A DNA stretch of 17,051 nucleotides from an uncultured Alphaproteobacteria bacterium. GTDB taxonomy: Bacteria > Pseudomonadota > Alphaproteobacteria > UBA3830. Within the stretch, counting starts at the first letter, position 1, and every line of letters begins with the position of its first letter. Below, piece by piece: positions 1,911-17,051 of this stretch. The translations under genes and the position numbers were made by a program. The notes under the pieces are model-generated. The model had not been told where the DNA came from, made no database searches, and worked only from the letters and a program-made list of their open reading frames with translations. Location of the stretch: the NCBI GenBank assembly GCA_905233775.1, contig CAJOEB010000004.1, positions 1-17,051 on the forward strand, read 5' to 3'.

Positions 1911-1975
1911 TATATACCTCTGTACCTCTAAAACTATTTCAAATGAAAATACTACTTCAAAAAATCTTAATTAAA

Positions 1976-3352: not shown

Positions 3353-3852
3353 TTTTTATTATCTGAACGAATTACTTTTTCATTTAGACGTTTCAATGCT
3401 ATTTCTGCATCTTTTGCAAAAGTCGATTTCGGATAATCTGCTTTTAATTTTTCGTATGAAATTTTTGCTTTCTTTTTATTTTCTTCTTTACTGCTATTAT
3501 CCGGCATGTTTTCAAAACATACTGCGAGCTTATACAAAGCTTCTGCTGCTTTTTCTCCGTTTTTTCCTCTTACTTCTTTATATTTTTTTACAAAGAATTT
3601 TGAAGCTTCCTCATATTCTCCTTTTTTTAATAAAATATCGCCGATATCACCTTCTTGAAGTAACTCGGCCAATTTTACTTTTAACTCTGCAACTTCCCTT
3701 TTTAATTCTTCAATTTCGCCCGTATTATTTCGAACAGTTTCTTCTAAGGTCGAAAAATCACTAGTAGCGTAAGTACTGTAGGAACAACAAGCACAACAAA
3801 AAGACAATAATAAAATTCTTATACTTATACTATTCATAAAAAGACTATTCAT
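3349..3852 (-). CDS. cpoB: Short CpoB/YbgF-type periplasmic protein (coiled coil + TPR)
   Basis: CpoB (YbgF) is a periplasmic partner of the Tol-Pal system that coordinates outer-membrane constriction with peptidoglycan synthesis. With the start at 3852 the protein has 167 residues, well below the usual 250 or so. It shows an export signal (hydrophobic stretch at about 11-25, small residues to about 29), a heptad coiled coil at about 34-64, and one to two TPR-like repeats covering the C-terminal half (GEYEEASKFF, then YEKLKADYPKSTFAKDAEIAL, the last repeat typical of CpoB). An upstream ATG at 3888 would add 12 residues overlapping folD and has no ribosome site. The ATG at 3852 has GGAGG five bases upstream. 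The gene overlaps tilS by 4 nt. Pal and the tol genes normally beside it are absent. The assignment rests on architecture and gene order. Confidence 0.8.
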   Translation of the reverse strand: MNSLFMNSISIRILLLSFCCACCSYSTYATSDFSTLEETVRNNTGEIEELKREVAELKVKLAELLQEGDIGDILLKKGEYEEASKFFVKKYKEVRGKNGEKAAEALYKLAVCFENMPDNSSKEENKKKAKISYEKLKADYPKSTFAKDAEIALKRLNEKVIRSDNKK

Positions 3853-3857
3853 AAAAA

Positions 3858-3862
3858 CCTCC
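3858..3862 (-). promoter_or_regulatory. Ribosome binding site that fixes the cpoB start
   Basis: A perfect GGAGG on the minus strand, five bases before the ATG at 3852. It selects this start over the in-frame ATG at 3888 (which would overlap folD) and over the ATG at 3837, neither of which has a comparable site. The ATG is followed by a repeated ATGAATAGT, giving the odd N-terminus MNSLFMNS. Confidence 0.75.
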
Positions 3863-3875
3863 GAGAGAAACAATT

Positions 3876-4730
3876 TTAATAACAGCATGCAAGCTTAAGT
3901 GTATTGTACATAAGGTAGGCAACAGTCATGGGACCAACACCGTTTGGTACAGGGGTAATTGCTCCAGCAATTTCACTTACTTCATCGAAATCTACATCGC
4001 CAACAATTTTCTTTGTTCCGTCAGGAGCGGTTATTCTGCTGACTCCGACATCAATAACAGTAGCGCCTGGTTTTACAAAATCTCTTCCGACAAACTTTGG
4101 CTGACCTGTTGCACTCACTAAAATATCAGCAGTTCTACAGACTTCCGGAAGATTTCGGGAATAAGAATGCAAAGCCGTAACGGTACAATTTGCATTTAGT
4201 AATAATAAGGTTGTAGGACGTCCGACAATGGATGATCTTCCGATAACAACTGCATGAAGTCCCGCAACTTTTTCATGAATAGAACGAATAAGATGCAAAA
4301 CTCCGAGCGGTGTACAAGGGACAACTCCGGGTTCTCCTGAAAACAGACGCCCTTGATTGATTGAGGTAAGTCCATCAACGTCTTTATCCGGAGATATCAG
4401 GTTTACCAACTCGCGAAATCTAAGTCCTTCCATTAACGGCGATTGTAAAAGGATTGCATGAACATTATTATCTGCATTTAGTTTTTCAATCAATTCGGCG
4501 ATATCTGCTTCTTTTGTTCCCGCAGTAAATTTGTATGTATCCGATTTTATTCCTACGGATTCGGCAAGTGTTTCTTTTTTTTCTACATATATTTCACTTG
4601 CGGGATCATTGCTTGCATTTATCAAAGCTATACGAGGGAAAACTCCGCGTACTTTTAGTTCATCTACTCGTTCTCTTACGGAATTACAAAATTCAGCTGC
4701 AATTTTTTTCCCGTTAATTATTTTTGCCAT
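3876..4730 (-). CDS. folD: Bifunctional methylenetetrahydrofolate dehydrogenase/cyclohydrolase FolD
   Basis: Interconverts 5,10-methylene-, methenyl- and 10-formyl-tetrahydrofolate in the cytosol, supplying formyl groups for purines and initiator tRNA. The 284-residue length is standard. Visible: DPASEIYVEKKE with the family's catalytic Tyr48 and Lys52, Gln96 in LLQSP, PDKDVDG with Asp119, the NADP-binding GRSSIVGRP at 164-172, and the C-terminal signature at 262-269. That signature reads PNGVGPMT where the family has PGGVGPMT, so one invariant-looking Gly is Asn263; the QLPLP loop is also altered to QSPLM. The start at 4730 has a strong AGGAGGA ribosome site. yggT ends 17 nt upstream and cpoB begins 23 nt downstream, so all are probably one transcript. 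Confidence 0.96.
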   Translation of the reverse strand: MAKIINGKKIAAEFCNSVRERVDELKVRGVFPRIALINASNDPASEIYVEKKETLAESVGIKSDTYKFTAGTKEADIAELIEKLNADNNVHAILLQSPLMEGLRFRELVNLISPDKDVDGLTSINQGRLFSGEPGVVPCTPLGVLHLIRSIHEKVAGLHAVVIGRSSIVGRPTTLLLLNANCTVTALHSYSRNLPEVCRTADILVSATGQPKFVGRDFVKPGATVIDVGVSRITAPDGTKKIVGDVDFDEVSEIAGAITPVPNGVGPMTVAYLMYNTLKLACCY

Positions 4731-4747
4731 TTTTCCTCCTGTTTGAT

Positions 4748-5050
4748 TTATGCAAACCTTAATAAAATTCGTGTTACAATATGCTCAATGAATGTGAGTA
4801 ATATCAGTAAGACGACAGGGGAAAAATCAAGTCCTTCAATAGTTAAAGATAACTTAGCTCTGATCGGGTTAAGCATTGCATTTGAAATTTTTGATACAAT
4901 TTCGACAACAGAATAGACAAATCTATTGTTGATATTCAATATTCCCAAAGCTGTAAGCCAACTTAATATTACATCAGTAACTATTACAATTACGGCAATG
5001 CCTATGAGAGATTTTACTAACAATAATAAAGGTACTATAATTATATCCAT
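4748..5050 (-). CDS. yggT: YggT family small membrane protein
   Basis: A 100-residue integral membrane protein of the YggT family, related to plant CCB3; its bacterial function is poorly defined, with proposed links to osmotic stress and membrane or division-site organisation. Two hydrophobic segments are visible, at about 5-35 and 75-95. Between them is the family pattern: ILSWL in the first segment, NNRFVY at about 41-46, then LNPIRAKL and GLDFSPVVLLILL. AAGGAG lies six bases before the ATG. It sits between xseB (43 nt) and folD (17 nt) in the same run. The family call is firm; the role is not established. Confidence 0.9.
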   Translation of the reverse strand: MDIIIVPLLLLVKSLIGIAVIVIVTDVILSWLTALGILNINNRFVYSVVEIVSKISNAMLNPIRAKLSLTIEGLDFSPVVLLILLTFIEHIVTRILLRFA

Positions 5051-5093
5051 AACGAACTCCTTTCAGAAAAAACTATCACAATATTATAAAATA

Positions 5094-5336
5094 TTACAGA
5101 TCAATTTCACTTACGCTAATTCCACCGGTGTCTTTATCAACAGAAATTTTATTTATTCGCAATTGAGTTGATTCTAAAATTTGATCGCAGTGCTTTTTTA
5201 GCATAGTTCCGCGTTCATATAAATCAACAGATTCTTTTAGAGTTGATTTTCCATCTTCCAATATTTTTACGATGTTTTCTAATTCCTCTAATGCCTCTTC
5301 GAATTCCATTTTATCGATATTTTTTTTCTCTGTCAT
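5094..5336 (-). CDS. xseB: Exodeoxyribonuclease VII small subunit XseB
   Basis: The small subunit that assembles in several copies on XseA to form exonuclease VII, which degrades single-stranded DNA. At 80 residues it has the expected size. The family core FEEALEELENIVKILEDGKSTLKESVDLYERGTML is visible in parts as FEEALEELE (12-20), the LEDG turn, then LYERG at about 44-48, all predicted alpha-helical. A GGAG lies about ten bases before the ATG. It is the first gene of the minus-strand run and is divergent from the CCA-transferase gene. The large subunit gene xseA is not in the window, so the complex must be completed from elsewhere. Confidence 0.93.
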   Translation of the reverse strand: MTEKKNIDKMEFEEALEELENIVKILEDGKSTLKESVDLYERGTMLKKHCDQILESTQLRINKISVDKDTGGISVSEIDL

Positions 5337-5366
5337 TCGTTTTAGCTCCGCTTATAATCTTATAAT

Positions 5367-5396
5367 ATTATAATAATACTGTAATATAGAATACAA
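5367..5396 (-). promoter_or_regulatory. Possible promoter of the xseB-ftsH run
   Basis: On the minus strand a TTGTAT box (5391-5396) is followed 18 nt later by a perfect TATAAT (5367-5372), leaving about 30 nt to the xseB ATG. The region is so AT-rich that TATAAT-like words are frequent (another sits at 5353-5358 on the plus strand), so the spacing and position are the main support. The plus-strand promoter of the CCA-transferase gene must lie in the same 79 bp but cannot be picked out. Confidence 0.35.
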
Positions 5397-5415
5397 AAAC
5401 ATTGAGCTTTTTAAC

Positions 5416-6639
5416 ATGGGGTATCAGGAAAAAATATCCGATTTATTAACCGAAGACGTTATTTTTATTCTCAATAAGATAGAGAACGCAGGATATGAAG
5501 CAAGAATTGTTGGCGGAGCGGTACGTAATCTGTTGATGGGAATTAATATTTCCGATGTTGATATAGCGACTACAGCGTTGCCGAACGAAATTAAGATGAT
5601 TTTTGGTGAAAGTGGGATGAAAGTTGTTCCAAGCGGTATTAATTATGGTACGGTTACTATTATTTATCATGACATTCCATATGAAATAACAACTTTACGT
5701 AGAGATATAAAAAATTTAGGACGAAAGGCTATAGTTGAATTTACAAAATCGTTTGAAGTCGATTCCGAACGTCGAGATTTTACCATGAACGCCATATATA
5801 TGGATAAAAACGGACGTATGTATGATTTTCATGGAGGGATTGACGATATTTATATGAAGAAAGTGAGATTTATTGGTAATCCTTCGACGAGAATATCTGA
5901 AGATTTTCTTAGGATTTTAAGATATTTCAGGTTTGTATCTTATTATGGGAATTTTGAATGTGATGCGGAATATTTAAGTATAATATATAGTGTAAAGGAA
6001 AAAATTCATCTATTATCTTATGAACGGATTCAAAACGAATTATTAAAAATATTTGAACTTAGTGATGCATATAGGATAATTCCGGCAATGCGTCCTGTGT
6101 TAGATGAATTATTTGCGTTAAATCAAAATCCGCTAGAGATTGCGGTGGAATTAGGAATTGATCTTTCTTCGATAGAAAAGTTTTGTTTACTTTTGAAATT
6201 TTCAAGTTTATTTCCAAGTTTAAATGCAAAAGAATTAAATAATCGATATAAATTTCCAAAGCGAATGAAACGATTATTAGCGCTGCATTTTGATATTAAC
6301 ACAAGAAGATATGAGAATACTGCAAAGATTTATTTAAAGAAAATCAGAGAAGAAGATAGATTATTTTTTGTAAATTGGCTTGCAGTAAAGTTATGTATTG
6401 AGAATAAAGTTTCAAAAAAACAAATATTAAAGATTCGCGAAAAACTTTTTAATTTCTGTAATTCCGAATATGTTGATTTTTATTTTCGGGCATCTGATTT
6501 AGTTAATTACAATTTATCGAAAGAAAAAATAAAAGAGGTTATGAAATATACAAAAAGTATTTGGATATCTTCTGAAAAAGATTTATCTGTTAAAAATTGC
6601 AAAAAAATTGCAGAAAATTTTATAGAAGCAGATAAATAG
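5416..6639 (+). CDS. cca: CCA-adding tRNA nucleotidyltransferase (class II, poly(A) polymerase head domain)
   Basis: Adds or repairs the 3' CCA of tRNAs from CTP and ATP. The 407-residue protein starts with the class II nucleotidyltransferase head: VGGAVRNLLMG at 32-42, the catalytic carboxylates of DVD (Asp47 and Asp49), EITTLRRD at 90-97, the RRDFTMNAI motif at 119-127 and ISEDFLRILRYFRF at 160-173, which matches the motif D EDxLR signature. The C-terminal half is helical, Lys-rich and less conserved. Alphaproteobacterial relatives are often labelled PcnB-like; the Asp and EDxLR motifs fit CCA addition rather than mRNA polyadenylation, but the two are hard to separate by eye. The ribosome site is weak (TTGAG about 10 nt upstream). 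Confidence 0.9.
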   Translation: MGYQEKISDLLTEDVIFILNKIENAGYEARIVGGAVRNLLMGINISDVDIATTALPNEIKMIFGESGMKVVPSGINYGTVTIIYHDIPYEITTLRRDIKNLGRKAIVEFTKSFEVDSERRDFTMNAIYMDKNGRMYDFHGGIDDIYMKKVRFIGNPSTRISEDFLRILRYFRFVSYYGNFECDAEYLSIIYSVKEKIHLLSYERIQNELLKIFELSDAYRIIPAMRPVLDELFALNQNPLEIAVELGIDLSSIEKFCLLLKFSSLFPSLNAKELNNRYKFPKRMKRLLALHFDINTRRYENTAKIYLKKIREEDRLFFVNWLAVKLCIENKVSKKQILKIREKLFNFCNSEYVDFYFRASDLVNYNLSKEKIKEVMKYTKSIWISSEKDLSVKNCKKIAENFIEADK

Positions 6640-6663
6640 TATTTGATTTTTAAACTATTTTTT
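6634..6663 (+). terminator. Weak AT-only hairpin at the end of the CCA-transferase gene
   Basis: AAATAGT (6634-6640, containing the stop codon) can pair with ACTATTT (6654-6660) across a 13-nt loop, followed by a short T-run. The stem is AT-rich and the loop long, so it may terminate poorly or be chance in AT-rich DNA. Confidence 0.3.
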
Positions 6664-6710
6664 CGAGTATTCTTTAATTTTTATATCTTTTTTATTTTTT
6701 TTTGCCTTTT

Positions 6711-6740
6711 TTGTTGAAATATTTGTTGTTTTTGTATAAC
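6711..6740 (+). promoter_or_regulatory. Possible tlc promoter
   Basis: TTGTTG (6711-6716), an 18-nt spacer, and TATAAC (6735-6740) lie 36 nt before the tlc ATG, after a T-rich tract. TTGAAA at 6714-6719 is an alternative -35 box with short spacing (15 nt). Position and a good -10 box support it. Confidence 0.4.
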
Positions 6741-6775
6741 ATACAGCCCGTTTCAAATTTTAAGAGGTAATTATT

Positions 6776-8281
6776 ATGGCGGAAGCAAAGAAATCTGAAG
6801 AGCAAGAATTCACTGGATGGAGGTCTGTATTTTGGCCAATTCATTCATTTGAATTGAAGAAATTTCTTCCTATGGCTCTCATGATGATGTGTATATTATT
6901 TACATACAGTATGTTGCGAGGAATGAAAGATTCCTTAGTTGTTACTACGATGGGAGAGGATACAATTCCGACTCTGAAATTGTGGTTTGTCTTGCCTTCA
7001 GCAGTATTGTTTATGCTCGTGTACTCCAAGCTTTCCAGCGTATTTTCAAAAGACCAAGTCTTTTACATGGTTACGTCATTTTTCTTGGTGTATTTTATAG
7101 CATTTGCTACTGTTTTATATCCGTGTCATTCATATTTGCAAGCGGATTTTTCAGGCATTGAGAATGAAGCTTTAAGAAGAGTTATGCGTCCTGTCGGAAA
7201 TTGGGTATTTTCTTCTTTTTATGTTATGGCGGAGCTTTGGGGCAGTGCCATGGTAAGCTTGATGTTCTGGAGATTTGCAAATGATGTAACTTCTTTGAAA
7301 GAATCAAAACGTTTTTATGCAATGTTCGGATTTGTAGCAAACGGTGCTCTTATTATTTCCGGTCTTTTCTTGAAGAATATTAACGGAGGGAATTCCAGTG
7401 GAGATGAGTGGGCTGCCTTGCCTTACCTTATCGCATCTGTTTCTGTTGCTTGCGTAATTATTATCAGTTTGTACTACTGGCTTAATAACAGTGTTTTAAA
7501 AGATCCCCGTTTCTTTAATCCTGATGAGATCAAGAAGCCAAAGAAGAAAGTTAAATTATCTCTTGGAGAAAGTTTGAATTACATTCTTCACTCAAAATAT
7601 CTTGGTTTTATCGTTTTACTGGTCGTGTGTTACGGTATTAGCATAAACTTAGTCGAGGTTATGTGGAAAGGTCAGGCGAAGCTCATGTATCCGACAAAAG
7701 ATGCATTTAACTCATTTATGGGCGGATTGCAAATTTGGACTGGTTTTGCAACGATATTCTTCATGCTTGTTGGTGCAAATGTATTGCGTAGATGTAGTTG
7801 GTTTACGGGAGCAATTGCTACTCCGGCTATAATTTTTATTACCGGATTGATTTTTTTCGGATTTATCATTTTCAAAGAGACTTTGACTCCTTATTTTTCT
7901 TCCAGTGAAGGTCTGACGGTATTGGGTGTTATTGTAGGTGTTGGATTAATTCAAAATGTTTTGAGTAAAGGTGTTAAATATTCTATGTTTGACCCGACTA
8001 AAGAAATGAGTTATATTCCTCTCGATGACGAGTTGAAATCGAAGGGGAAGGCTGCAGTTGATGTTATTGGTGGTCGTGCCGGTAAATCAGGTGGAGCTTT
8101 GATCCAATTTCTTCTGCTTAACGTGATTTTTGTAGGATCATCGTTGGTAGAACTCGCTCCGGTTATTGCCGGAATATTTGTTGTTATTTTGTTGGTGTGG
8201 TTCTATGCTGTTTCGGGACTTAATAAAGAGTTCTTGAAGATTACATCAGAGCAACAACAGAACAGTAATAATAATAAGTAG
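6776..8281 (+). CDS. tlc: ATP/ADP translocase (Tlc, NTT family)
   Basis: An inner-membrane nucleotide antiporter that takes up host ATP in exchange for bacterial ADP, the hallmark of energy-parasitic intracellular bacteria (Rickettsia, Chlamydia, Holosporales) and plastids. The 501-residue length and about twelve hydrophobic segments match the family. Diagnostic stretches: MLRGMKDSLVVT at 46-57 with the charged KDSL after the first membrane segment, AELWGS at 152-157, NLVEVMWKGQ at 291-300, SFMGGLQIWTG at 313-323, KYSMFDPTKEMSYIPLD at 401-417 and GRAGKSGGALIQ at 433-444. GAGG lies eight bases before the ATG, and the gene ends in a strong terminator. Paralogues in related genomes carry other nucleotides or NAD, so the exact substrate is inferred. 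Confidence 0.96.
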   Translation: MAEAKKSEEQEFTGWRSVFWPIHSFELKKFLPMALMMMCILFTYSMLRGMKDSLVVTTMGEDTIPTLKLWFVLPSAVLFMLVYSKLSSVFSKDQVFYMVTSFFLVYFIAFATVLYPCHSYLQADFSGIENEALRRVMRPVGNWVFSSFYVMAELWGSAMVSLMFWRFANDVTSLKESKRFYAMFGFVANGALIISGLFLKNINGGNSSGDEWAALPYLIASVSVACVIIISLYYWLNNSVLKDPRFFNPDEIKKPKKKVKLSLGESLNYILHSKYLGFIVLLVVCYGISINLVEVMWKGQAKLMYPTKDAFNSFMGGLQIWTGFATIFFMLVGANVLRRCSWFTGAIATPAIIFITGLIFFGFIIFKETLTPYFSSSEGLTVLGVIVGVGLIQNVLSKGVKYSMFDPTKEMSYIPLDDELKSKGKAAVDVIGGRAGKSGGALIQFLLLNVIFVGSSLVELAPVIAGIFVVILLVWFYAVSGLNKEFLKITSEQQQNSNNNK

Positions 8282-8314
8282 CATTGTTATTATACTCCTT
8301 TTAATTAATCTATG

Positions 8315-8345
8315 GATCCCGGTACTTGTTATCGGGATCTTTTTT
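8315..8345 (+). terminator. Rho-independent terminator of tlc
   Basis: GATCCCGGTA (8315-8324) pairs with TATCGGGATC (8330-8339) over a 5-nt loop, with one G-U wobble, and is followed at once by six T's (8340-8345). It lies 33 nt after the tlc stop codon. This is the clearest intrinsic terminator in the window. Confidence 0.93.
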
Positions 8346-8415
8346 ATAATCTTTTTGTATAAAAAAAATCATCGGTTGAGTTAATTTGGTTCAAAAAGGT
8401 TTGTTATTTATATAG

Positions 8416-8451
8416 ATAGAAGGGAAATAAGAGAAATATAGAAGGGAAATA
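8416..8451. repeat. 14-bp direct repeat, period 22
   Basis: ATAGAAGGGAAATA occurs perfectly at 8416-8429 and again at 8438-8451, inside a purine-rich tract that continues to about 8462. It may have arisen by replication slippage. Confidence 0.8.
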
Positions 8452-8729
8452 GAAAGGAAAATGTATGGATATAGAACATCAATATTTGATTTTTATATTT
8501 CCGATTATATAAATTATATAAGAAGAACATAATAAGACCCCTGTTAGTTTAAAATTCAACAAGAAAATCTTATGTATCTTTAATCTATTAATTCACGGTG
8601 TTTCCTTTTGACGTTTTATATCTGCTTTTGCTTGTTTAATCAATCTATTTTTTAAGAAAAACAGTTCTTTTATTTATGATTTATGAATAAAATATACATA
8701 AAGATTAGCAATTAGAGCTTTCGCAAAAT

Positions 8730-8821
8730 TAGAGTTCTCACAAAAGCAGAAAATGGCATTTTTAAGTTTTTGATTTCTGGGAGCTAAAAAAAGGGCAAGA
8801 CGACTTTCGCAAGAGGGTCTA
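8730..8821 (+). mobile_element. Palindromic MITE-like element, copy A
   Basis: A 92-bp element flanked by TA on both sides. The left end TAGAGTTCTCACAAAAGC and the right end, read in reverse as TAGACCCTCTTGCGAAAG, are related inverted repeats. The left arm continues through GAAAATGGCATTTTTAA, which recurs almost unchanged in copies C (15579-15657) and D (15748-15836). A second, degenerate copy of the left terminus sits just before it at 8712-8731 (TAGAGCTTTCGCAAAA). It encodes nothing. It lies downstream of tlc in non-coding DNA. Confidence 0.75.
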
Positions 8822-9306
8822 TTGTAAATTTATATATTGTTTTTTACAAAACAAGTATCACAAAATATTATCGACAGTCTTAATACTGGTATTAATACAG
8901 TTTTAATTTAGTTTTTAGTTATATCGATAGAAGTTTTTTGCAGGATAGCCTAAGGAATTTTTTTCAGAGAGATATATATAAGAGAGATATAATATATATT
9001 TTTTTAGAAATAACAGAAGCAGATGTTTAGAATAGAAGAAAGATTAAAGAGTTTATTTTTAAGAGACCTATATAATTAATAGGCATATATAATATAAGTA
9101 GTATTAAGTAGTATACTGGAAGTAGTAAAAAAGAACTTGTGTAGATTTATTATATAAACACTCTACTTTATAATGTGCTGCTATAGTTGTTATTTTCTTA
9201 TTATAAATATATGTATTTTAGAACATAAGAACAATAACAAATATTGAAATCTGTTTTTATAGGATAATAAGATTAGTATTAGATTAATAATTAAAAGTGA
9301 TATTGA

Positions 9307-9397
9307 TAGATGTCTTGCAAAAGTAGTTTTTGGCTATTTATAGTTCCTGATAAACAGATTTTCAAAAATATCGTTTTCAACTTTTGCAAAGGATCTA
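9307..9397 (-). mobile_element. Palindromic MITE-like element, copy B (inverted)
   Basis: A 91-bp element with TA at each end, in the opposite orientation to copies A, C and D. On the minus strand it starts TAGATCCTTTGCAAAAGTTG, continues GAAAACGATATTTTTG and ends in CTTTTGCAAGACATCTA. Its internal part (CTGTTTATCAG and what follows, up to the end) closely matches copy D, including the identical AAGACATCT terminus. B and D therefore form a subgroup. No coding capacity. Confidence 0.75.
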
Positions 9398-9555
9398 ATA
9401 AACGTATATTAAAAGAAAAACATAAAAAATATTCGAACAACTAGAGCTTACTACAAGTAATAATATGGATAATAATATAAAAAACAATTTTGTTCAAAAA
9501 AATAGATAAAGTTAATAAGAAAAGAAAATAGAATAGTAAAAAAATATAATAACTA

Positions 9556-9585
9556 TAAGTAGCTATAAATTAAGTAGCTATAAAT
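9556..9585. repeat. Perfect tandem duplication of 15 bp
   Basis: TAAGTAGCTATAAAT is present twice head to tail (9556-9570, 9571-9585), 22 bp beyond the stop codon of the second glycosyltransferase gene. It looks like a recent slippage event. Confidence 0.85.
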
Positions 9586-9607
9586 AAAATAAATATAACA
9601 ATGTTTT

Positions 9608-10507
9608 TTAGTAACTTCTTCCCATCCTTTTTATTTCTGAGTCGTTTAATTTTTGTTCAACCATCTTTTTCATTGCGACATATCCTTTAACTTTTCCTGT
9701 GTTAATACCTCCTTGTTGGAAGACTATATCATCAATTGGATAGTCAGAAGTGTTTGTTAGATTGAGCAGTTTCCTGGCTCCTCTCTGATTTATTATATAA
9801 CCATGCATTCCGTAAACTAAATTAGTAGGTTGGATTTTTGCGACAAATGGATGGTTTTCGACATTGTCTATATCTCTGAAAATATCTCCCACGCAAACAA
9901 AGTATCCATATTTGTTATTTCTGCGCCCTACACCAAGAAAAGCAATATCCCAATCATTTGGAAGATCTGCAATGTATTCCCGTAAATTTGATTTAAAGTT
10001 TTTATCAAGAATGACGTCATCTTCAAAGATAATTACACTATCGTAGTTGTTTTTGATCATTTCTTTCCAAATCTCACGATGACTACATGCAACACCGACT
10101 TCTCCTAAAGAAAATCGCACTTTATTAACAATGACTTGCATTAATGGGCATCCACCTAATACGACATTATATTTTACTGGTTTGTTTTCCCAAGAATAAT
10201 TATGAAAGTTTTTCTTTTCTTCGGCATTTAGGAATTTACCTGTTTCTGTATTTTGAAAATCTAAGTTATATCCATCTATAGCTTTAAATCTTTCGCATTT
10301 GATATTTTGCTCATCAAGTTGATTTTTTACAAAAGAAAATCGTTCGGGTGTTCGATCTAAACTGATTACATATATTTTTGAAGCATACGGTTTTGAATTG
10401 TTGTTACAGCTTTCGATATTATTGTTATTATTATCGTTATTATTATATTGTGATGATGAACAAGCACATAATAATAAACAGATTAATAATAAAAATGTTT
10501 TTTTCAT
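9608..10507 (-). CDS. Exported (lipoprotein-like) glycosyltransferase family 25 protein, distal copy
   Basis: Family 25 enzymes transfer sugars, usually galactose, to lipooligosaccharide in bacteria and to collagen in animals. The 299-residue protein has the family's opening KIYVISLDRTPERFSFV at 44-60, FKAIDG at 74-79, VACSHREIWKEM at 139-150, the EDD metal/sugar-nucleotide motif at 162-164 (IIFEDDVI), and PIDDIVFQ near the C-terminus. It begins MKKTFLLLICLLLCAC, a short signal with a lipobox-like LCAC (Cys16), followed by an Asn-rich linker at 21-37 encoded by AAT/AAC triplets. A cytoplasmic lipooligosaccharide enzyme would not need an export signal. The start lies 4 nt after the stop of the upstream paralogue, with AGGA inside that gene's end, so both are probably co-transcribed. 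The acceptor is unknown; a host-facing or surface target is inference. Confidence 0.85.
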   Translation of the reverse strand: MKKTFLLLICLLLCACSSSQYNNNDNNNNNIESCNNNSKPYASKIYVISLDRTPERFSFVKNQLDEQNIKCERFKAIDGYNLDFQNTETGKFLNAEEKKNFHNYSWENKPVKYNVVLGGCPLMQVIVNKVRFSLGEVGVACSHREIWKEMIKNNYDSVIIFEDDVILDKNFKSNLREYIADLPNDWDIAFLGVGRRNNKYGYFVCVGDIFRDIDNVENHPFVAKIQPTNLVYGMHGYIINQRGARKLLNLTNTSDYPIDDIVFQQGGINTGKVKGYVAMKKMVEQKLNDSEIKRMGRSY

Positions 10508-10511
10508 TTTT

Positions 10512-11324
10512 TTATCGTCCTAATTTGGTAATTTCTGAATTAAAGTGATTTCCGGATACTAATTTAATTTTTGAAACATATAAATTTAAATTTTCTGCAT
10601 GATCTATTATCGCGGCATCGACAGGGACATATGCAATTTCGGTTAATTTTAATAATTTTTCAGCAGATTTTGAGTTTACGCAATATGCATGTAATCCCCA
10701 AATTCTTCTTGTGCTTTTCAAGCTTGCATAATACGGTGATGAAGTATTTGAAAAATTGCTCAACCAAAATCCAGCAGATACAAAATAAGTTTTTTCAGCA
10801 TATGGTTTGCACATACCTATATCAAGAAAGAAAATATCGAAGTCATCAGGAATGTTTTTCATGACTTCTAATAAGTTTTCTTTAAAATTATGGAAAAATT
10901 CAACATCATCTTCAAAAATTATCGCATTTTTGTAACCATGTTTAACAATATCTTGCCATACAGCTCTGTGACTTAAAAAGCATCCGCATTCACCGGGAGT
11001 TAAGTCTTGTTCTTTGTATGAATATACGAATTCCGCATTTTTATATTTTTCTGATGGATCAGCAATAATATAACTATGTCCTTTTTCCTTGTTAGAGATG
11101 GTTTTTCCTGTAGCTAAATCAGTTACTTTACATAATTTTCCATCTACAGCGTGAAAATGTGTGCATTGAAAACCGAATTTATCTAACTGATTTTTTACGA
11201 ATTTTAGTCTATGTGGTGTTCTGTCTAGGGAAATAATGTATATTTTTTCGGGGGTTTTTTCATGACAAGCCGATATATTCTGAATAGAGAAAAAACTAAA
11301 TAGTAGTACAAAAAAAATCTTCAT
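10512..11324 (-). CDS. Exported (lipoprotein-like) glycosyltransferase family 25 protein, proximal copy
   Basis: A 270-residue paralogue of the next gene downstream. Shared landmarks: KIYIISLDRTPHRLKFVKNQLD at 27-48 (nearly identical in both), FHAVDG at 57-62, GCFLSHRAVWQDI at 114-126, IIFEDDVEF at 135-143 with EDD at 138-140, and PVDAAIIDH near residue 234. The N-terminus MKIFFVLLFSFFSIQNISAC is a signal peptide ending in ISAC, a good lipobox with Cys20. The protein would thus leave the cytoplasm, perhaps anchored to a membrane. It is first in a two-gene unit; the ribosome site is weak (TTGAG, about 8 nt before ATG). Beyond the family fold, substrate and acceptor cannot be told from the sequence. 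Confidence 0.85.
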   Translation of the reverse strand: MKIFFVLLFSFFSIQNISACHEKTPEKIYIISLDRTPHRLKFVKNQLDKFGFQCTHFHAVDGKLCKVTDLATGKTISNKEKGHSYIIADPSEKYKNAEFVYSYKEQDLTPGECGCFLSHRAVWQDIVKHGYKNAIIFEDDVEFFHNFKENLLEVMKNIPDDFDIFFLDIGMCKPYAEKTYFVSAGFWLSNFSNTSSPYYASLKSTRRIWGLHAYCVNSKSAEKLLKLTEIAYVPVDAAIIDHAENLNLYVSKIKLVSGNHFNSEITKLGR

Positions 11325-11493
11325 TCATTACTCAATATTTACAACATTTAATTTATAATATTTATTGCATCTATATATTTATACATTATATTTATGCATT
11401 TTTATGTATTTACGCACTTATACACAGATTAATATATTCTTTCAATATTGTATTTTCGTTATTCAAATAAAGAGAGTTCATGTTAAAAAAGAC

Positions 11494-11523
11494 TTGTGTG
11501 TTTGATCTTTATAGTGATATTAT
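11494..11523 (+). promoter_or_regulatory. Promoter of the tRNA-Thr-thrS unit
   Basis: TTGTGT (11494-11499), an 18-nt spacer and TATTAT (11518-11523) are placed 17 nt before the first base of the tRNA. A start site would fall a few bases before the mature tRNA, as expected for a primary tRNA transcript. No other promoter is evident between the tRNA and thrS. Confidence 0.5.
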
Positions 11524-11539
11524 CGCCTAGATTTATCGT

Positions 11540-11614
<75 letters not shown>

Positions 11615-11675
11615 TGCGAATTTTCTTTATTCTTATCTTGGTTGTTATTTTGTTGTTACTCGAGGCGATGAAAAA

Positions 11676-13523
11676 ATGATTTCCGGTTTTGATTATATAA
11701 AGTCTAATGGATTAAAGAAGGTATTTGCGCTTATCGTAGATGGTGTGCCGACTGATTTAAGCGCAATATTTTCTGAGACAGCAAAGGTTGAAGCGATAAC
11801 AAAAGAGCATCCGTTGGCATTGGAGATTATGCGACATACAACAGCTCATATTATGGCACAAGCGATAAAGGAGCTGTATCCGAGTGCGAAAATTGCTATA
11901 GGTCCTGTAATTGAGAATGGTTTTTACTATGATATTTCCTGTGAACATCATTTTACTCCGGAAGATTTTCCCGGAATTGAGAAAAGAATGCGAGAAATTA
12001 TAAAGGCTGATTATAAAATTACACGAGAGATTGTTTCAAAAGAGGACGCAATTAAATTTTTTTCATCTAAGAATGAACCTTTTAAGGTTGAGCTTATACA
12101 GGATTTGGATGTTGGTGAAGTTAGTTTTTATCATCACGAAGATAAATTTACGGATTTATGCCGTGGTCCGCATTTACCAAAAACCGGTATGGCTTCTGTT
12201 CATTTCGATATCATGAAAGTTGCAGGAGCATATTGGCGCGGAGATTCGAATCGGGAGATGTTGCAACGTTTGTACGCGACGTCTTGGTTTACAAAAGAAG
12301 AGTTGGAAAATTATATCAATTTACTAGAGGAAGCAGAGAAACGCGATCACAGAAAGATCGGTAAGGAGATGGGGTTGTTTCATCTTCAGGAAGAAGCTGC
12401 CGGTTCGATTTTCTGGCATCCGCGCGGATGGACTTTATATAGGACTCTTCGCAATTATGTACGAAAGCGTATAAATGAAGATGGTTATGTTGAAGTTTGC
12501 ACACCTCAAATGGTCGATAGAGTTTTATGGGAACAATCAGGACATTGGGAAAAATTCCGCCAAAATATGTTTATATCAGAGTCGGAAGGAAAAATGCATG
12601 CAATAAAGCCAATGAATTGTCCATGTCATATACAAATTTTTAAGCAAGGAACGAAAAGCTATCGTGATTTACCTCTGCGTATGGCGGAATTCGGCTGTTG
12701 TCATCGTAATGAGCCATCGGGATCGCTGTATGGTACCATGCGTGTTCGTTCTTTTGTTCAGGATGATGCCCATATATTCTGTACACCTGAGCAAATAAAC
12801 TCCGAAACAAAAAGATTTTGCAAATTGCTGTCTCGAATTTATAAAGAATTGGGATTTGAATCATTTTCAGTTAAGTTTTCAGATCGTCCGGAAAAAAGAG
12901 TTGGTTCAGAAGCAATTTGGGATTTAGCAGAAGATTTATTGCAAAAGGCAGTTCGTGAAGTTGGCCTCGAATATACCATAAACAAAGGGGAGGGGGCTTT
13001 TTATGGTCCTAAACTGGAGTTTGTGTTGAAAGATAAACTAAATCGAGATTGGCAGTGTGGTACTTTCCAAGTCGATTTCAATCTTCCTGAACGTTTAGGT
13101 GCTTGGTATACAGGAGAAGACGGTGAAAAACATCATCCGATAATGCTTCACAGAGCAGTACTTGGATCTCTTGAGCGATTTATCGGTATTTTGCTTGAAC
13201 ATTATGCGGGAAAACTTCCTATGTGGCTTGCTCCGGTACAGATTGTTGTTGCAACAATTACCAATGATTACGATGCATATGCGCAAAAGTTTTTTGATGC
13301 TTTAGTTACAGCTGGTATCAGAGCAGAATTAGATTTGCGGGCTGAAAAAATTTCTTACAAAATCAGAAACCATTCGTTAGCGAAAATTCAACTAATGGCG
13401 ATTATCGGTGAGAATGAATCAACTAATGACACAATTACTTTGAGAAAAATGGATGGTTCGCAGCAATCTTTATCATTTTCTGCAGCTGTGGATTTTTTGA
13501 AAGAAATATGTAAAGAACCATAA
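11676..13523 (+). CDS. thrS: Threonyl-tRNA synthetase ThrRS with shortened TGS domain
   Basis: Charges tRNA-Thr and hydrolyses mischarged Ser-tRNA-Thr. The 615-residue protein contains the editing domain with HTTAH (His54, His58) and CRGPH (Cys162), catalytic zinc ligands Cys315 (MNCPCH), His366 (DDAHIF) and His492 (MLHRA), motif 2 CHRNEPSGSLYGTMRVR with Arg344, motif 3 around VLGSLERFIGI, and a C-terminal anticodon domain (WLAPVQIVV, DLRAEKISYKIR). The family's N-terminal TGS domain normally opens with about 19 further residues (a T-L-P-D-G strand). Here the protein begins at ISGFDYIKSNGLKK, mid-domain. The frame stays open upstream to the tRNA but has no start codon and no TGS-like sequence. 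GAGG lies ten bases before the ATG. Its own tRNA substrate lies immediately upstream. Confidence 0.97.
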   Translation: MISGFDYIKSNGLKKVFALIVDGVPTDLSAIFSETAKVEAITKEHPLALEIMRHTTAHIMAQAIKELYPSAKIAIGPVIENGFYYDISCEHHFTPEDFPGIEKRMREIIKADYKITREIVSKEDAIKFFSSKNEPFKVELIQDLDVGEVSFYHHEDKFTDLCRGPHLPKTGMASVHFDIMKVAGAYWRGDSNREMLQRLYATSWFTKEELENYINLLEEAEKRDHRKIGKEMGLFHLQEEAAGSIFWHPRGWTLYRTLRNYVRKRINEDGYVEVCTPQMVDRVLWEQSGHWEKFRQNMFISESEGKMHAIKPMNCPCHIQIFKQGTKSYRDLPLRMAEFGCCHRNEPSGSLYGTMRVRSFVQDDAHIFCTPEQINSETKRFCKLLSRIYKELGFESFSVKFSDRPEKRVGSEAIWDLAEDLLQKAVREVGLEYTINKGEGAFYGPKLEFVLKDKLNRDWQCGTFQVDFNLPERLGAWYTGEDGEKHHPIMLHRAVLGSLERFIGILLEHYAGKLPMWLAPVQIVVATITNDYDAYAQKFFDALVTAGIRAELDLRAEKISYKIRNHSLAKIQLMAIIGENESTNDTITLRKMDGSQQSLSFSAAVDFLKEICKEP

Positions 13524-13726
13524 AAATAATCATAGTAATATTGAATACTGTAGTAATAAAGTAGGAATAAAAATAACTGTCTTAAATATATATATCTTAA
13601 ATATATTGGTATATTATTACGATAGTAATAGTTGTTGCGACTATTATATGGAGTTAACATTTTTTGAATGTTTTTGCTCTTTAATGTTGTTTCGATAGTT
13701 GTTGTTATAAAGGTTGTGTCGTAGTT

Positions 13727-15448
13727 ATGTCTGTATTATCTGATGATAGTAGTAAGATCGATTTTTTTGATCTTTTTCCTTTTGCTGTTTTAAATCCGCA
13801 AATTGCGATGCTTTCGTATTTAAAAGTCGGCGAAAAAATGGCGCAGCAGCCAAAGAAAATGGAAGCAGCTCAGCAAGATTTATTAGATCGGCTTATTGAA
13901 TTGCAAAAGAATTTTGTGAAAGATGTGTGCAAAGATAAAAATGACGATGATGACTGTATAAATCTTGAGTACAACGAAAAAAATAAAAAATTTGAAGATA
14001 ATCCATTTGAAAACCATCCTGTAATGAAATTCACAAAGCAGTTTCATGATACTGTAGCGGATTGGTTGCTTACTACTCTTGATGATGTAGATAATGTTGA
14101 TGATAGGACGATGCACAGTGCACGTTTTTTCTTAAAACAATATATCGATATGATGTCTCCGAAGAATTTTCCGTTTCTTAATCCGGATTTCCTGCAAAAA
14201 ACTATGGATACTTACGGCGAAAATATTCGTGCTGGTATGGAAATGCTTGCAAACGATATAAAAAACGGAGCAATTACAACGAATGATCGTTCAAAATTCA
14301 AAATTGGCGAAAATATTGCGATTACTCCCGGTAAAGTGATATATCAAAATGACTTGATAGAGTTGATACAGTATACTCCGACGACAGAAAAAGTATATGC
14401 TAAGCCGTTTTTATTTGTTCCTCCGTGGATTAACAAGTTTTATATTTTGGATCTTACTCCGGAAATGTCGTTTGTAAAATGGTTGGTGGACAAAGGTTTT
14501 ACGGTATTCATGATATCATGGGTTAATCCTGATAAGCGACACAGAAACAAAGGATTTGGCAACTATATTACCGAAGGACTGATTGATTCCATAGATAAAA
14601 TACACGAGATTACCAAATCGAAATCTTTGCATGCTTTAGGTTATTGCGTTGGTGGTACGTTGATATCTGCTTTGCTGGCGTATCTCGCAAATCCTGCGTG
14701 CGTGCGTCGTCCTAAGGCACAAATAGAATCTGCGACACTGCTTACTACTCTGCTTGATTTTGATCAGGCGGGCGATATGGCCATATTTATGGCAGAAAAT
14801 TACCTTGATGCCATTAATGCGCAGTTAAAAGATCGTGGTTATTTGGACGGGCAGATAATGTTCAACACGTTTAGCGCTCTGAAGGCAAATGATATGATTT
14901 GGCGGTACTTTGTCGATAGCTATATGCTGGGAAAGAAACCGATAGCACATGAGATTTTGTTTTGGAATTCAGATCCTACTAATCTTACAGAAGCAATGCA
15001 GAAGTTTCTATCAAAAGATTTGTATAGAGATAATTTGTTGAAGACAGGAACGTTAAAAATTCTAGATGTTCCGCTTAATTTGAAGTTGATTAACACGCCA
15101 ATTTATATGATTTCTATGGAAAAAGATCATTTGGTACCTTGGAAGGCGACATTTGACGGCATGAAACTATTTAACAGCAATATTCGCTTTGTACTTGGCG
15201 GATCAGGACATGTCGCAGGCTCTATTAATCCACCTCAACGAAATAAATACTGCTACTGGGTAAACGAAGGAACAGTCGAGACGGCTGCAGAGTGGTTTGA
15301 AACAGCAACAAAAATCGCAGGATCCTGGTGGAATGATTGGTTGAAGTGGATTACTCCAATGATGGGAGAGATGGTTGCGCCAAGGCAAATCGCAAATTTT
15401 TTACGAGATGCTCCGGGGATATACGTGAATAACAGAATTGGGGAATAG
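13727..15448 (+). CDS. phaC: Class I poly(3-hydroxyalkanoate) synthase PhaC
   Basis: Polymerises (R)-3-hydroxyacyl-CoA into storage polyester granules. The 573-residue size suits a stand-alone class I enzyme. Visible: the helical N-terminal domain, GKVIYQNDLIELIQY at 202-216, then an alpha/beta-hydrolase core with PPWINKFYILDL (232-243), the lipase-box-like GYCVGG with catalytic Cys307, NDMIWRYFVDSYMLGK (388-403), Asp467 in EKDHLVPW and His495 in GGSGHVAG, completing the Cys-Asp-His triad. An acidic, low-complexity insert lies at about 66-92. It follows thrS by 203 bp of AT-rich spacer and has only a weak ribosome site. No phaA, phaB, phasin or depolymerase gene is nearby, so precursor supply must be encoded elsewhere. 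Confidence 0.95.
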   Translation: MSVLSDDSSKIDFFDLFPFAVLNPQIAMLSYLKVGEKMAQQPKKMEAAQQDLLDRLIELQKNFVKDVCKDKNDDDDCINLEYNEKNKKFEDNPFENHPVMKFTKQFHDTVADWLLTTLDDVDNVDDRTMHSARFFLKQYIDMMSPKNFPFLNPDFLQKTMDTYGENIRAGMEMLANDIKNGAITTNDRSKFKIGENIAITPGKVIYQNDLIELIQYTPTTEKVYAKPFLFVPPWINKFYILDLTPEMSFVKWLVDKGFTVFMISWVNPDKRHRNKGFGNYITEGLIDSIDKIHEITKSKSLHALGYCVGGTLISALLAYLANPACVRRPKAQIESATLLTTLLDFDQAGDMAIFMAENYLDAINAQLKDRGYLDGQIMFNTFSALKANDMIWRYFVDSYMLGKKPIAHEILFWNSDPTNLTEAMQKFLSKDLYRDNLLKTGTLKILDVPLNLKLINTPIYMISMEKDHLVPWKATFDGMKLFNSNIRFVLGGSGHVAGSINPPQRNKYCYWVNEGTVETAAEWFETATKIAGSWWNDWLKWITPMMGEMVAPRQIANFLRDAPGIYVNNRIGE

Positions 15449-15578
15449 AGATAAAGGAGAATAGGGATAAAAGCAAAAATAATAGATTTTTGCAAAAAGT
15501 TACAAGATTATCAGTTTGAACAGCCTTATTTTTGATACACTCCTATAAGAAAAGGCAGCAAATGAGTTTTCGGAGGAG

Positions 15579-15657
15579 TAGGAATCTTGCGAAAGTCGAA
15601 AATAGCATTTTTATCAGAGATAATAAATATTACCAAATTACTTTCGCAAGAGGTCTA
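15579..15657 (+). mobile_element. Palindromic MITE-like element, copy C (best-preserved ends)
   Basis: A 79-bp element bounded by TA. The 12-bp inverted termini TCTTGCGAAAGT (from 15584) and ACTTTCGCAAGA (to 15651) are perfect; the outer bases are TAGGAA on the left and GGTCTA on the right. The left arm continues CGAAAATAGCATTTTTA, as in copies A and D. It starts 131 bp after phaC ends and is non-coding. Because both arms pair, RNA read through it would fold into a long hairpin. Confidence 0.8.
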
Positions 15658-15747
15658 GTTTATTCTTGGTGCGCTATATTACAAACAGCATAGTTGGTTT
15701 AATTTTCCGTTGTTTGTAACATCATTCACCTGATCAAAATTAAATGA

Positions 15748-15836
15748 TAGAGTTCTACAAAAGTCGAAAATTTCATTTTTAAAGGTCTGATTATCAGGTC
15801 TACAAATATCAAAAAATCATTTTCGTAAGACATCTG
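15748..15836 (+). mobile_element. Palindromic MITE-like element, copy D
   Basis: An 89-bp element beginning TAGAGTTCTACAAAAGTCG and continuing GAAAATTTCATTTTTAA, with the right end ATTTTCGTAAGACATCT. The final TA of the other copies has decayed to TG here. Its centre carries the small palindrome CTGATTATCAG (15787-15797). From there to the right end it closely matches inverted copy B. It lies only 90 bp after copy C. Confidence 0.75.
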
Positions 15837-15907
15837 GTTATTTATTTCTGCAAAGTAAAACAGATTTCAAAAATTCTTTTATATAATATTCGTAAAAAAA
15901 TGTTTGT

Positions 15908-15946
15908 AAAAAAAAGAAGTGAGGCGAAGTATTAACAACTCCGCCT
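15908..15946 (-). terminator. Rho-independent terminator of the exported-protein gene
   Basis: On the minus strand, 15 nt after the stop codon at 15962, AGGCGGAGT pairs with ACTTCGCCT (9 bp, one G-U wobble, 7-nt loop; plus positions 15938-15946 and 15922-15930). After six bases it runs into a T-tract (15908-15915). The pairing is complete only on this strand (an A-C mismatch on the other), which supports its direction. Confidence 0.75.
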
Positions 15947-15961
15947 ATTTTATATCTTTTG

Positions 15962-16759
15962 CTAGCTTGGTTTTTTCTCTGTCATCGATAATGATGAAGC
16001 ATTGAATGATGAACTAGAAGAACTCGATGAGGAAGAATCAGTAGATTGATGACTCTGTCTCAGCTGGTGTGGTAGTGTATATGGAGCAGGTGCTGGCTGA
16101 TGTCCCATTGTTTTGAATACACCAAGGATATGTCTTATATTATCATCATTTGCATGTGGTATGCCTTCATATGCAATAAGTCCAAGATGCCCATCTATTT
16201 CTTTTAATTCTTCATGAGATCTACTAATGCTACTCATTAAAAGAAGAACTAAATCTAATACTTCACTTGCTTTTCCTCCGATTTGATGTTCTAATTCAGC
16301 AACAACAGGATCTTCGGTTGTCATTGAAGTCGATGATGATTGATAAGAATATGCACTCGCTCTTTCTCCTTCTTCCTCCTCTTCTTTCTTTTCTCCTTCT
16401 AGAGTACTTGATTTCATTATGAGCTGCTGTTTTTTGGCCGTTTCTTTTGCTGCTTCATGACGAAGTAATAGATTGAACACGTCATTTTTTTCTGCATTTG
16501 CAATGGTTCCTTCCAGTTGTGGGATAACACCATCTCTTAGTTTCAAATATTCTTCTTTCGTCATTTCCGACATTGCATGACGTTCTGCGTAGAAAGCTGT
16601 TAGGTCTTGATCGTGATGATCTAATGTTACCCATCGTTGGGAATTATTCGGTACATCATAGCCTTTACCAGAAGGACATCCAGGATTACTGGAATAGGCT
16701 ATACCACCCCCCATTACTACCATAGATACAACAAGATATTTGCTAATTTTTCTAATCAT
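15962..16759 (-). CDS. Exported protein of unknown function with Glu and Ser tracts
   Basis: Not recognised as any family. The 265-residue protein begins MIRKISKYLVVSMVVMGGGIAYS, a standard signal peptide with probable cleavage after about residue 23, so it should reach the periplasm or beyond. The mature part has a helical, charged region (about 60-120) ending in KKEEEEEGE, a Ser/Thr patch, a second helical region around 150-200 (VLDLVLLLMSSISRSHEEL), a Pro/His-rich stretch (HQPAPAPYTLPHQL), and a C-terminal run of ten Ser near 242-251 followed by NASSLSMTEKKPS. GGAGG lies nine bases before the ATG and a good terminator follows, so it is a real, monocistronic or last-in-unit gene. Low-complexity exported proteins of this kind are candidate surface or secreted factors, but no motif proves it. 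Confidence 0.75.
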   Translation of the reverse strand: MIRKISKYLVVSMVVMGGGIAYSSNPGCPSGKGYDVPNNSQRWVTLDHHDQDLTAFYAERHAMSEMTKEEYLKLRDGVIPQLEGTIANAEKNDVFNLLLRHEAAKETAKKQQLIMKSSTLEGEKKEEEEEGERASAYSYQSSSTSMTTEDPVVAELEHQIGGKASEVLDLVLLLMSSISRSHEELKEIDGHLGLIAYEGIPHANDDNIRHILGVFKTMGHQPAPAPYTLPHQLRQSHQSTDSSSSSSSSSSFNASSLSMTEKKPS

Positions 16760-16781
16760 ATTAAAAATCCTCCAAAGTTAT

Positions 16782-16803
16782 AAAAAAGCTCTTTTTCTCG
16801 AGC
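16782..16803 (-). terminator. Short hairpin with T-run before the exported-protein gene
   Basis: On the minus strand GCTC (16800-16803) can pair with GAGC (16788-16791) around an 8-nt loop, followed directly by six T's (16782-16787). It lies 58 nt after the stop of the partial gene upstream and could end its transcript, but the stem is only 4 bp. Confidence 0.3.
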
Positions 16804-16861
16804 AACAAATATATACATAAATACATTACAAATTTTTTTTTATTAATTTATATTTTTTTAT

Positions 16862-17051
16862 TTATTCTTCTTCCTCTGTTACCTCCTTGCTTTTTTCTAT
16901 CATAAGTTCTGCACCGGCTCCGAATAAATTTTGATCAGCAGCATTTTTTAAAGATGGAAGTATACTACTTAACTCTCCGAAAATTGCTTTTAATCCTTCC
17001 AGTAAATGACCTCTATCAGCTATTGCAGATTGAATAATTTTACGATCAAAA
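16862..17051 (-). CDS. C-terminal 62 residues of an unrecognised protein (partial)
   Basis: An open minus-strand frame enters from the right edge and stops at TAA (16862-16864). The visible tail reads through AIADRGHLLEGLKAIFGELS, then LKNAADQNLFGAGAELM, and ends in an acidic KSKEVTEEEE. It looks mostly helical with small-residue-rich stretches. No family is recognised. It lies 102 nt upstream of the exported-protein gene on the same strand; with its acidic tail it may be a related accessory protein, but that is a guess. It was not long enough to stand out as a complete gene, but codon pattern and uninterrupted frame to the edge support it. Confidence 0.55.
   Translation of the reverse strand, partial: FDRKIIQSAIADRGHLLEGLKAIFGELSSILPSLKNAADQNLFGAGAELMIEKSKEVTEEEE

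Follow-up and report, generated by a model that had tools for sequence, protein, structure and literature searches.

Short repeats in an uncultured alphaproteobacterium as probable copies of a MITE family with IS5-type ends and a three-base target duplication

The window analysed here, a 17,051-nucleotide stretch from an uncultured alphaproteobacterium (assembly GCA_905233775.1, contig CAJOEB010000004.1, positions 1 to 17,051, forward strand), contains four short palindromic repeats, copies A to D. There is little doubt that these repeats are copies of an approximately 90-bp, gene-less miniature inverted-repeat transposable element (MITE) with ends of the IS5 type and an A-N-T (ANT) target duplication. 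A preliminary description had presented them as a single family of TA-bordered elements of 79-92 bp in non-coding DNA. All four indeed aligned together as one family, and none (0/4) overlapped an open reading frame (ORF) of at least 60 codons in the window; the lengths required adjustment, with the true ends giving 90, 89, 77, and 87 bp for A to D, respectively. Positions of the elements proper, and of the duplications read from their flanks, are listed below.

8731..8820, plus strand: copy A, element proper, 90 bp, flanks ATT/ATT
8728..8730: left target duplication of A, ATT
8821..8823: right target duplication of A, ATT
9308..9396, minus strand: copy B, element proper, 89 bp, inverted, flanks ATT/ATC
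9397..9399: target duplication at the left end of B, ATT on the minus strand
9305..9307: target duplication at the right end of B, ATC on the minus strand, one base different
15580..15656, plus strand: copy C, element proper, 77 bp, internal deletion relative to the other copies, flanks AGT/AGT
15577..15579: left target duplication of C, AGT
15657..15659: right target duplication of C, AGT
15749..15835, plus strand: copy D, element proper, 87 bp, decayed, flanks GAT/GGT

Copies A and C kept perfect 3-bp ANT duplications, while one base had changed in B, and copy D had decayed. Directly 5' of copy A, the sequence TAGAGCTTTCGCAAAA (window 8716-8730) resembled, by eye, the terminus of a further such element in decayed form. 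Genes in the window encode an ATP/ADP translocase (6776-8281, PF03219), as found in bacteria living within other cells, two adjoining and apparently duplicated glycosyltransferases of family 25 (9608-11324, PF01755), and a protein that has a serine run close to its terminus and no Pfam match (15962-16759).

The window's own genome is a draft assembly of 1,207,836 bases in 220 contigs, 83% complete. A DNA search of this assembly with copy A alone yielded 22 matches including copy A itself, the 21 others at E ≤ 0.001 (best, 2.2e-19), and the end pattern TTGCRAAAGTNGAAAA (at most one mismatch) occurred 60 times, as compared with 4 times for a reversed control. When 26 copies were combined into a model, 140 matches were obtained at E ≤ 1, a count that refers to the best 150 of 2843 candidates scored and includes some places on both strands. 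Re-scanning of 80 stretches (215,026 bases) with a profile of 26 copies identified 119 places at E < 0.01, of which 92 were near full length and 27 partial. Since these stretches were picked for holding matches, the rest of the genome being covered by the copy-A, end-pattern, and model searches, 119 is a lower bound on matched places; three pairs of partial matches may each represent one broken copy, so that copies number 116-119. The further genomic copies expected in the preliminary description were thus found, in the high number typical of MITEs. In 67 well-covered copies, length (median 89 bp, range 77-107) was likewise that of a MITE, for which less than about 300 bp is expected, and the arms of the terminal inverted repeats matched at, on average, 12.7 of 17 positions. 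These repeats were imperfect: base counts gave a left end of approximately AGRGWTMTTGCRAAAGT and a right end approximately the complement of AGAKHTMTTGCRAAAGT. Nearest-neighbour identity of the same copies ranged from 66 to 100%, which indicated that young and old copies are both present. Three sequence groups could be discerned by eye in alignments.

TA bordered most of the near-full-length copies (left 69/92, right 84/92). In the preliminary description, this was read as a TA target duplication, with an IS630/Tc1-type MITE inserted at TA as the leading interpretation and an IS5 group as another possible source. Bases outside the TA were examined in the 63 of 92 near-full copies that had sufficient flank and a TA at either end. 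In 55 of these 63 copies, the bases immediately outside the left and the right TA were identical (mean 26.1 and maximum 43 in 100,000 shuffles); the second base before the left TA was A in 62, the second base after the right TA was T in 55, and a full 3-bp ANT was present on both sides in 50. A TA duplication offers no ground for agreement of these outer bases, which a 3-bp ANT duplication does explain. Consequently, the target duplication comprises three bases, ANT, and includes the border T, whereas the border A is the first base of the element. ANT duplications are described as a shared trait of bacterial IS5 elements (PMC4482050).

A base-exact paralogous empty site within the draft assembly gave the same result. 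Contig C23 carries the filled site GAACTAAT[element]AATAAACAGC and contig C13 the empty site GAACTAATAAACAGC, with two AAT in the former versus one in the latter. Whereas a TA duplication predicts an empty site three bases longer, the actual site corresponds to both flanks with one AAT removed. Taken literally, the earlier expectation that a single TA should remain at an empty site therefore failed, although the MITE interpretation itself stands. This comparison comes from a repeat region with similarity to a transposase gene of the IS1595 type, which in the relative G007 contains PF12762. In the same two contigs (L165:1273-1945 on C23 and L013:1495-1587 on C13), several copies were seen in decayed repeats resembling such an IS1595-type (PF12762) gene, just upstream of a gene that by eye resembles secA. 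Elsewhere, a copy at C118:171-262, with AAT on both sides, was nested within the remains of an older copy; joining its flanks lengthened the match to the older copy only slightly. On the 3' side of phaC, where copies C and D are located, none of the seven relatives' loci compared provided a precise orthologous empty site: no copy was seen in them and their downstream DNA did not align, phaC itself being matched in 10 of 11 genomes of the genus, own included.

Transposases of the IS630 type (DDE_3) were rejected as parents: across 8 genomes, only one of five loci (L065) had a matching end, and this locus adjoins a DDE_Tnp_1 match. The border TA, the main point for an IS630/Tc1 reading, is accounted for by the T of ANT and the first base of the element, and this reading with TA duplication is refuted; we regard it as having practically no remaining probability. 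The alternative source named in the preliminary description, IS5, was the one favoured by the ANT duplication and the single AAT at the empty site.

Insertion sequences (IS) with similar ends were found in relatives. A PF13359 search covered 40 genomes of the bacterial family and gave matches in 17. Ends of the type TCTTGCGAAAGT (at most one mismatch) occurred at 9 of 28 PF13359 loci of relatives (two of these loci overlap), as compared with 2 of 38 control loci (29 der, 9 phaC), and 12 of the 13 such ends in the nine loci were preceded by ANT, versus 0/2 in the controls. Three loci had both ends.

L069 (genome G016): IS with both ends, 963 bp apart, flanks ACT/ATT
L075 (genome G003): IS with both ends, 971 bp, flanks ATT/ATT, one end with two mismatches
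L081 (genome G015): IS with both ends, 953 bp, flanks ATT/AAT

Transposases of these relatives contained domains PF13613, PF13359, and PF01609, as expected for the IS5 type. Against NCBIfam, two out of three transposase pieces, which are incomplete, scored best with the IS5 model NF033581 (112 and 116 bits, short of the cut-off of 140); the third had no match there. Thus, the preliminary suggestion of an IS with like ends and a transposase led to putatively autonomous elements of approximately 960 bp, with IS5-type (PF13613/PF13359) transposases and ends mostly adjoining ANT. Together with the copy number, the similar ends of these IS support the proposed IS-derived, non-autonomous, MITE-like nature of the family. 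The IS5-type partner may belong to the ISL2 subgroup. One IS5-type IS in the draft assembly itself, on contig C81 (L022:1477-2342), has an open transposase frame of 252 codons that scored above the cut-off of NF033580; with different ends, GGGGTTGTTGGTAAA, it was rejected as the parent.

The family was patchily distributed among relatives. Model matches at E ≤ 1e-4 were obtained in 8 of 30 genomes, own included, with 94 in the own genome, 20 in G004, 9 in G007, 4 in G016, 2 in G011, and one each in G003, G006, and G013 (some places counted on both strands). At E ≤ 1e-5, 8 of 49 genomes of the order were matched, G051 now being included with 4 matches, and none (0/9) of those outside the bacterial family. 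An exact inner pattern, searched over a GTDB collection from which records of the own genome may be left out, was present in three contigs: Red_deer_1_mag_183 (an alphaproteobacterium), an 'uncultured Holosporaceae bacterium', and the rumen metagenome-assembled genome (MAG) RUG14145. By shared sequence, these correspond to G004, G016, and G007, respectively. Viral contigs gave 0 matches to one exact inner pattern. The habitat of the relatives suggests that the source bacterium lives in a gut.

Mechanically called ORFs of at least 100 codons cover 71% of the re-scanned stretches, and 3 of the 119 places were half or more inside one: one over the start of a DUF4280 gene, one in an ORF without Pfam match, and one in der. 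The other places comprised 34 in convergent, 34 in tandem, and 14 in divergent gaps and 34 at an edge, with background gaps numbering 27 convergent, 67 tandem, and 19 divergent. Such placement bears on the possibility that the copies are functional palindromes, i.e., bidirectional terminators or RNA-processing hairpins kept by selection at gene ends. Thirty-four of the 82 copies for which both neighbours were seen were in convergent gaps, which make up 28% of gap length, and neighbouring gene ends were 102 three-prime versus 62 five-prime, in a count where copies share gaps and are not independent. As RNA, A, B, and C folded better than shuffled sequences and D did not (z -2.6, -3.2, -4.7, and -1.1, respectively). 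A 3' bias is, however, likewise expected if insertions in promoters are removed, and the ANT duplications show arrival by transposition. Moreover, arms matched at 12.66 of 17 positions within a copy versus 12.42 between copies (standard deviation 0.12, maximum 12.81 in 2000 shuffles). As this excess of about two standard deviations was inside the shuffled range, arm pairing is not clearly maintained. The RNAalifold consensus fold kept 4 base pairs only, which makes the corresponding model, R1, in effect a sequence model. A role as functional palindrome is therefore considered highly improbable, and there was no convincing sign of an RNA or a peptide on whose account the family would be retained; the intergenic and 3'-side bias would fit removal of harmful insertions.

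A clear in-gene case was found at C171:369-460 (L113:369-460, minus strand), where a copy is located in frame in der (engA), which encodes the ribosome-assembly GTPase Der, between the G4 and G5 motifs. The insert of 93 bp, i.e., 31 codons, lengthens the protein by 31 amino acids, and the frame is open over 285 codons from the ATG to the end of C171 (3360 bp, from a MAG). This was the only der found in the draft, another match, on C17, being 35% identical. A Der query matched all 40 genomes of the family, own included, and the 31 residues were absent from 28/28 aligned Der sequences of relatives (29 loci, of which L221 remained unparsed). The der of G003 reads CCTTATGAAAATTTTAGAACTC and the own der CCTTATGGAAAT[element]GATTTTGCG, which gives flanks AAT/GAT. 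Among the 116 parsed sequences of the best 120 out of 7998 database homologues, G4-G5 spacing was 19 residues in 100, 18-23 in 15, and 34 in one, as compared with 50 in the own Der. Four of these 120 homologues partly covered the insert in BLAST, yet had a spacing of 19-23. In the relative G007, a 143-codon ORF continues in frame through a copy at L186:1063-1155, close to the 3' end of the ORF; a second ORF overlaps it in another frame, and the 143-codon ORF may be decayed.

The der copy recalls Rickettsia palindromic elements (RPE), which are described as short palindromic elements of small alphaproteobacterial genomes that can sit in frame in conserved protein genes (PMC2229807, PMC10969869). 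The statement in the preliminary description that, unlike RPE, none of the copies is inside a gene held for the window and not for the genome, given der. Whether the family could itself consist of true RPE, or of a direct relative, was considered in view of this in-frame case, the small alphaproteobacterial genome, and the palindromic shape and length of about 100 bp. The likeness is one of description. Frames were open in 95 of 606 cases, somewhat more than in Markov-shuffled copies (78.4, standard deviation 8.3; about two standard deviations), but no more than in intergenic controls (185/1194), consistent with the lack of coding capacity of a MITE; a conserved open frame across copies was not observed, whereas RPE are described as having one (PMC2229807, PMC10969869). 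A frame open through the element with at least 15 codons on each side was seen in 10 of 101 copies. Whereas RPE are often in genes, only the three places mentioned above were in ORFs of 100 or more codons, with der as the one clear in-gene case among 119. PMC2229807 gives the RPE target duplication as '?'; in the present family, ANT and IS5-type ends are visible. It is thus extremely improbable that the copies are RPE in the strict sense.

Elements of comparable kind are known. MITECca01 of a Cardinium endosymbiont is likewise a MITE in a small symbiont genome (169 copies, versus 116-119 here) that lies mainly between genes or within other mobile elements and has ends in common with a full IS; it differs by its origin from IS982, its length of approximately 240 bp, and its intact parents in the same genome (PMC9769881), as compared with IS5-type ends, approximately 90 bp, and no parent found in the genome in the present family. 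Correia/NEMIS of Neisseria and RUP of pneumococcus are described as high-copy (RUP, 108) elements of 107-155 bp with inverted repeats and TA at both termini, and the ends of RUP match those of an IS (PMC2229807). RUP is linked with IS630 and has TA as its target (PMC2229807), while the border TA of the present family consists of the T of the duplication and a terminal A. In the symbiont Amoebophilus, IS of the IS5 family, ISL2 group, have inverted repeats of 19-23 bp and lengths of 914-991 bp, and are listed without direct repeats (PMC3196728); the present elements are without transposase and have only their ends in common with the IS5-type elements found. In-frame insertions of Coxiella QMITEs provide a close parallel (PMC5896051). 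Literature on MITEs (ISL2, alphaproteobacterial endosymbionts, Holosporales/Holosporaceae) and on Holospora palindromic elements contained, among the matches listed and by title or abstract start, no description of this family. The kind of element is known; this family and the in-frame der case appear, within the literature searched, to be new.

The interpretation as an IS5-type MITE brings together the ends, copy number, ANT, base-exact paralogous empty site, orthologous empty site in der, nested copy, and patchy spread. In the proposed mechanism, an IS5-type transposase of the kind found in relatives would recognise TCTTGCGAAAGT-type ends, cut or copy the element out, and join it to a staggered cut at A-N-T, repair of which would leave the 3-bp direct repeat. 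Several observations weigh against this interpretation. No TCTTGCGAAAGT-type end was present at 19 of the 28 relatives' PF13359 loci, flanking triplets were identical at one (L075) of the three both-ended loci, and IS and element shared the terminal ~17 bp only, mainly a 12-bp core. The inner sequence CGAAAATGGCATTT occurred in none of the IS found, so that derivation by internal deletion was not apparent from these IS copies. A transposase with matching ends was not found in the own draft, where 0/2 PF13359 loci had such an end, one being a fragment on C135 near a contig edge with one side visible only; G004, second richest in copies, had no PF13359 or PF01609 match. The full ANT pair was missing in 13 of the 63 copies tested, and 29 of the 92 near-full copies, lacking border TA or flank, fall outside that count. 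Two further insertions in the C13/C23 repeat region, one common to both contigs and absent from G007, the other (C23:8072) in C23 and not in C13, gave comparisons that were not base-exact. Finally, mobility of the element itself is deduced from sequence. Because no matching parent was found in the draft, the copies may be stranded by now, or their mobilisation may have depended on an IS that has since disappeared or escaped assembly. Most insertions within genes appear to have been removed by selection, with the in-frame der copy as a survivor.

These results describe, in relatives of gut Holosporaceae-type bacteria, a MITE family for which target rule, empty sites, and IS partners have been worked out. 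They also correct a misreading, that of a TA border as a TA duplication, which may also affect other bacterial MITEs with TA borders. Through the der copy, a palindrome inserted in frame into a conserved gene is connected with an established rule of transposition, and the origin of the Rickettsia elements thereby becomes open to direct test. As a tentative and rather speculative proposal, RPE-like coding palindromes might not be specific to Rickettsia: IS5-type MITEs in reduced alphaproteobacterial genomes could generate them, and RPE could be worn remnants of comparable IS5-type MITEs. If that were true, the present family would show the process with its signature still readable, in the AAT/GAT flanks, the relatives' empty site, and the 31 codons in der.

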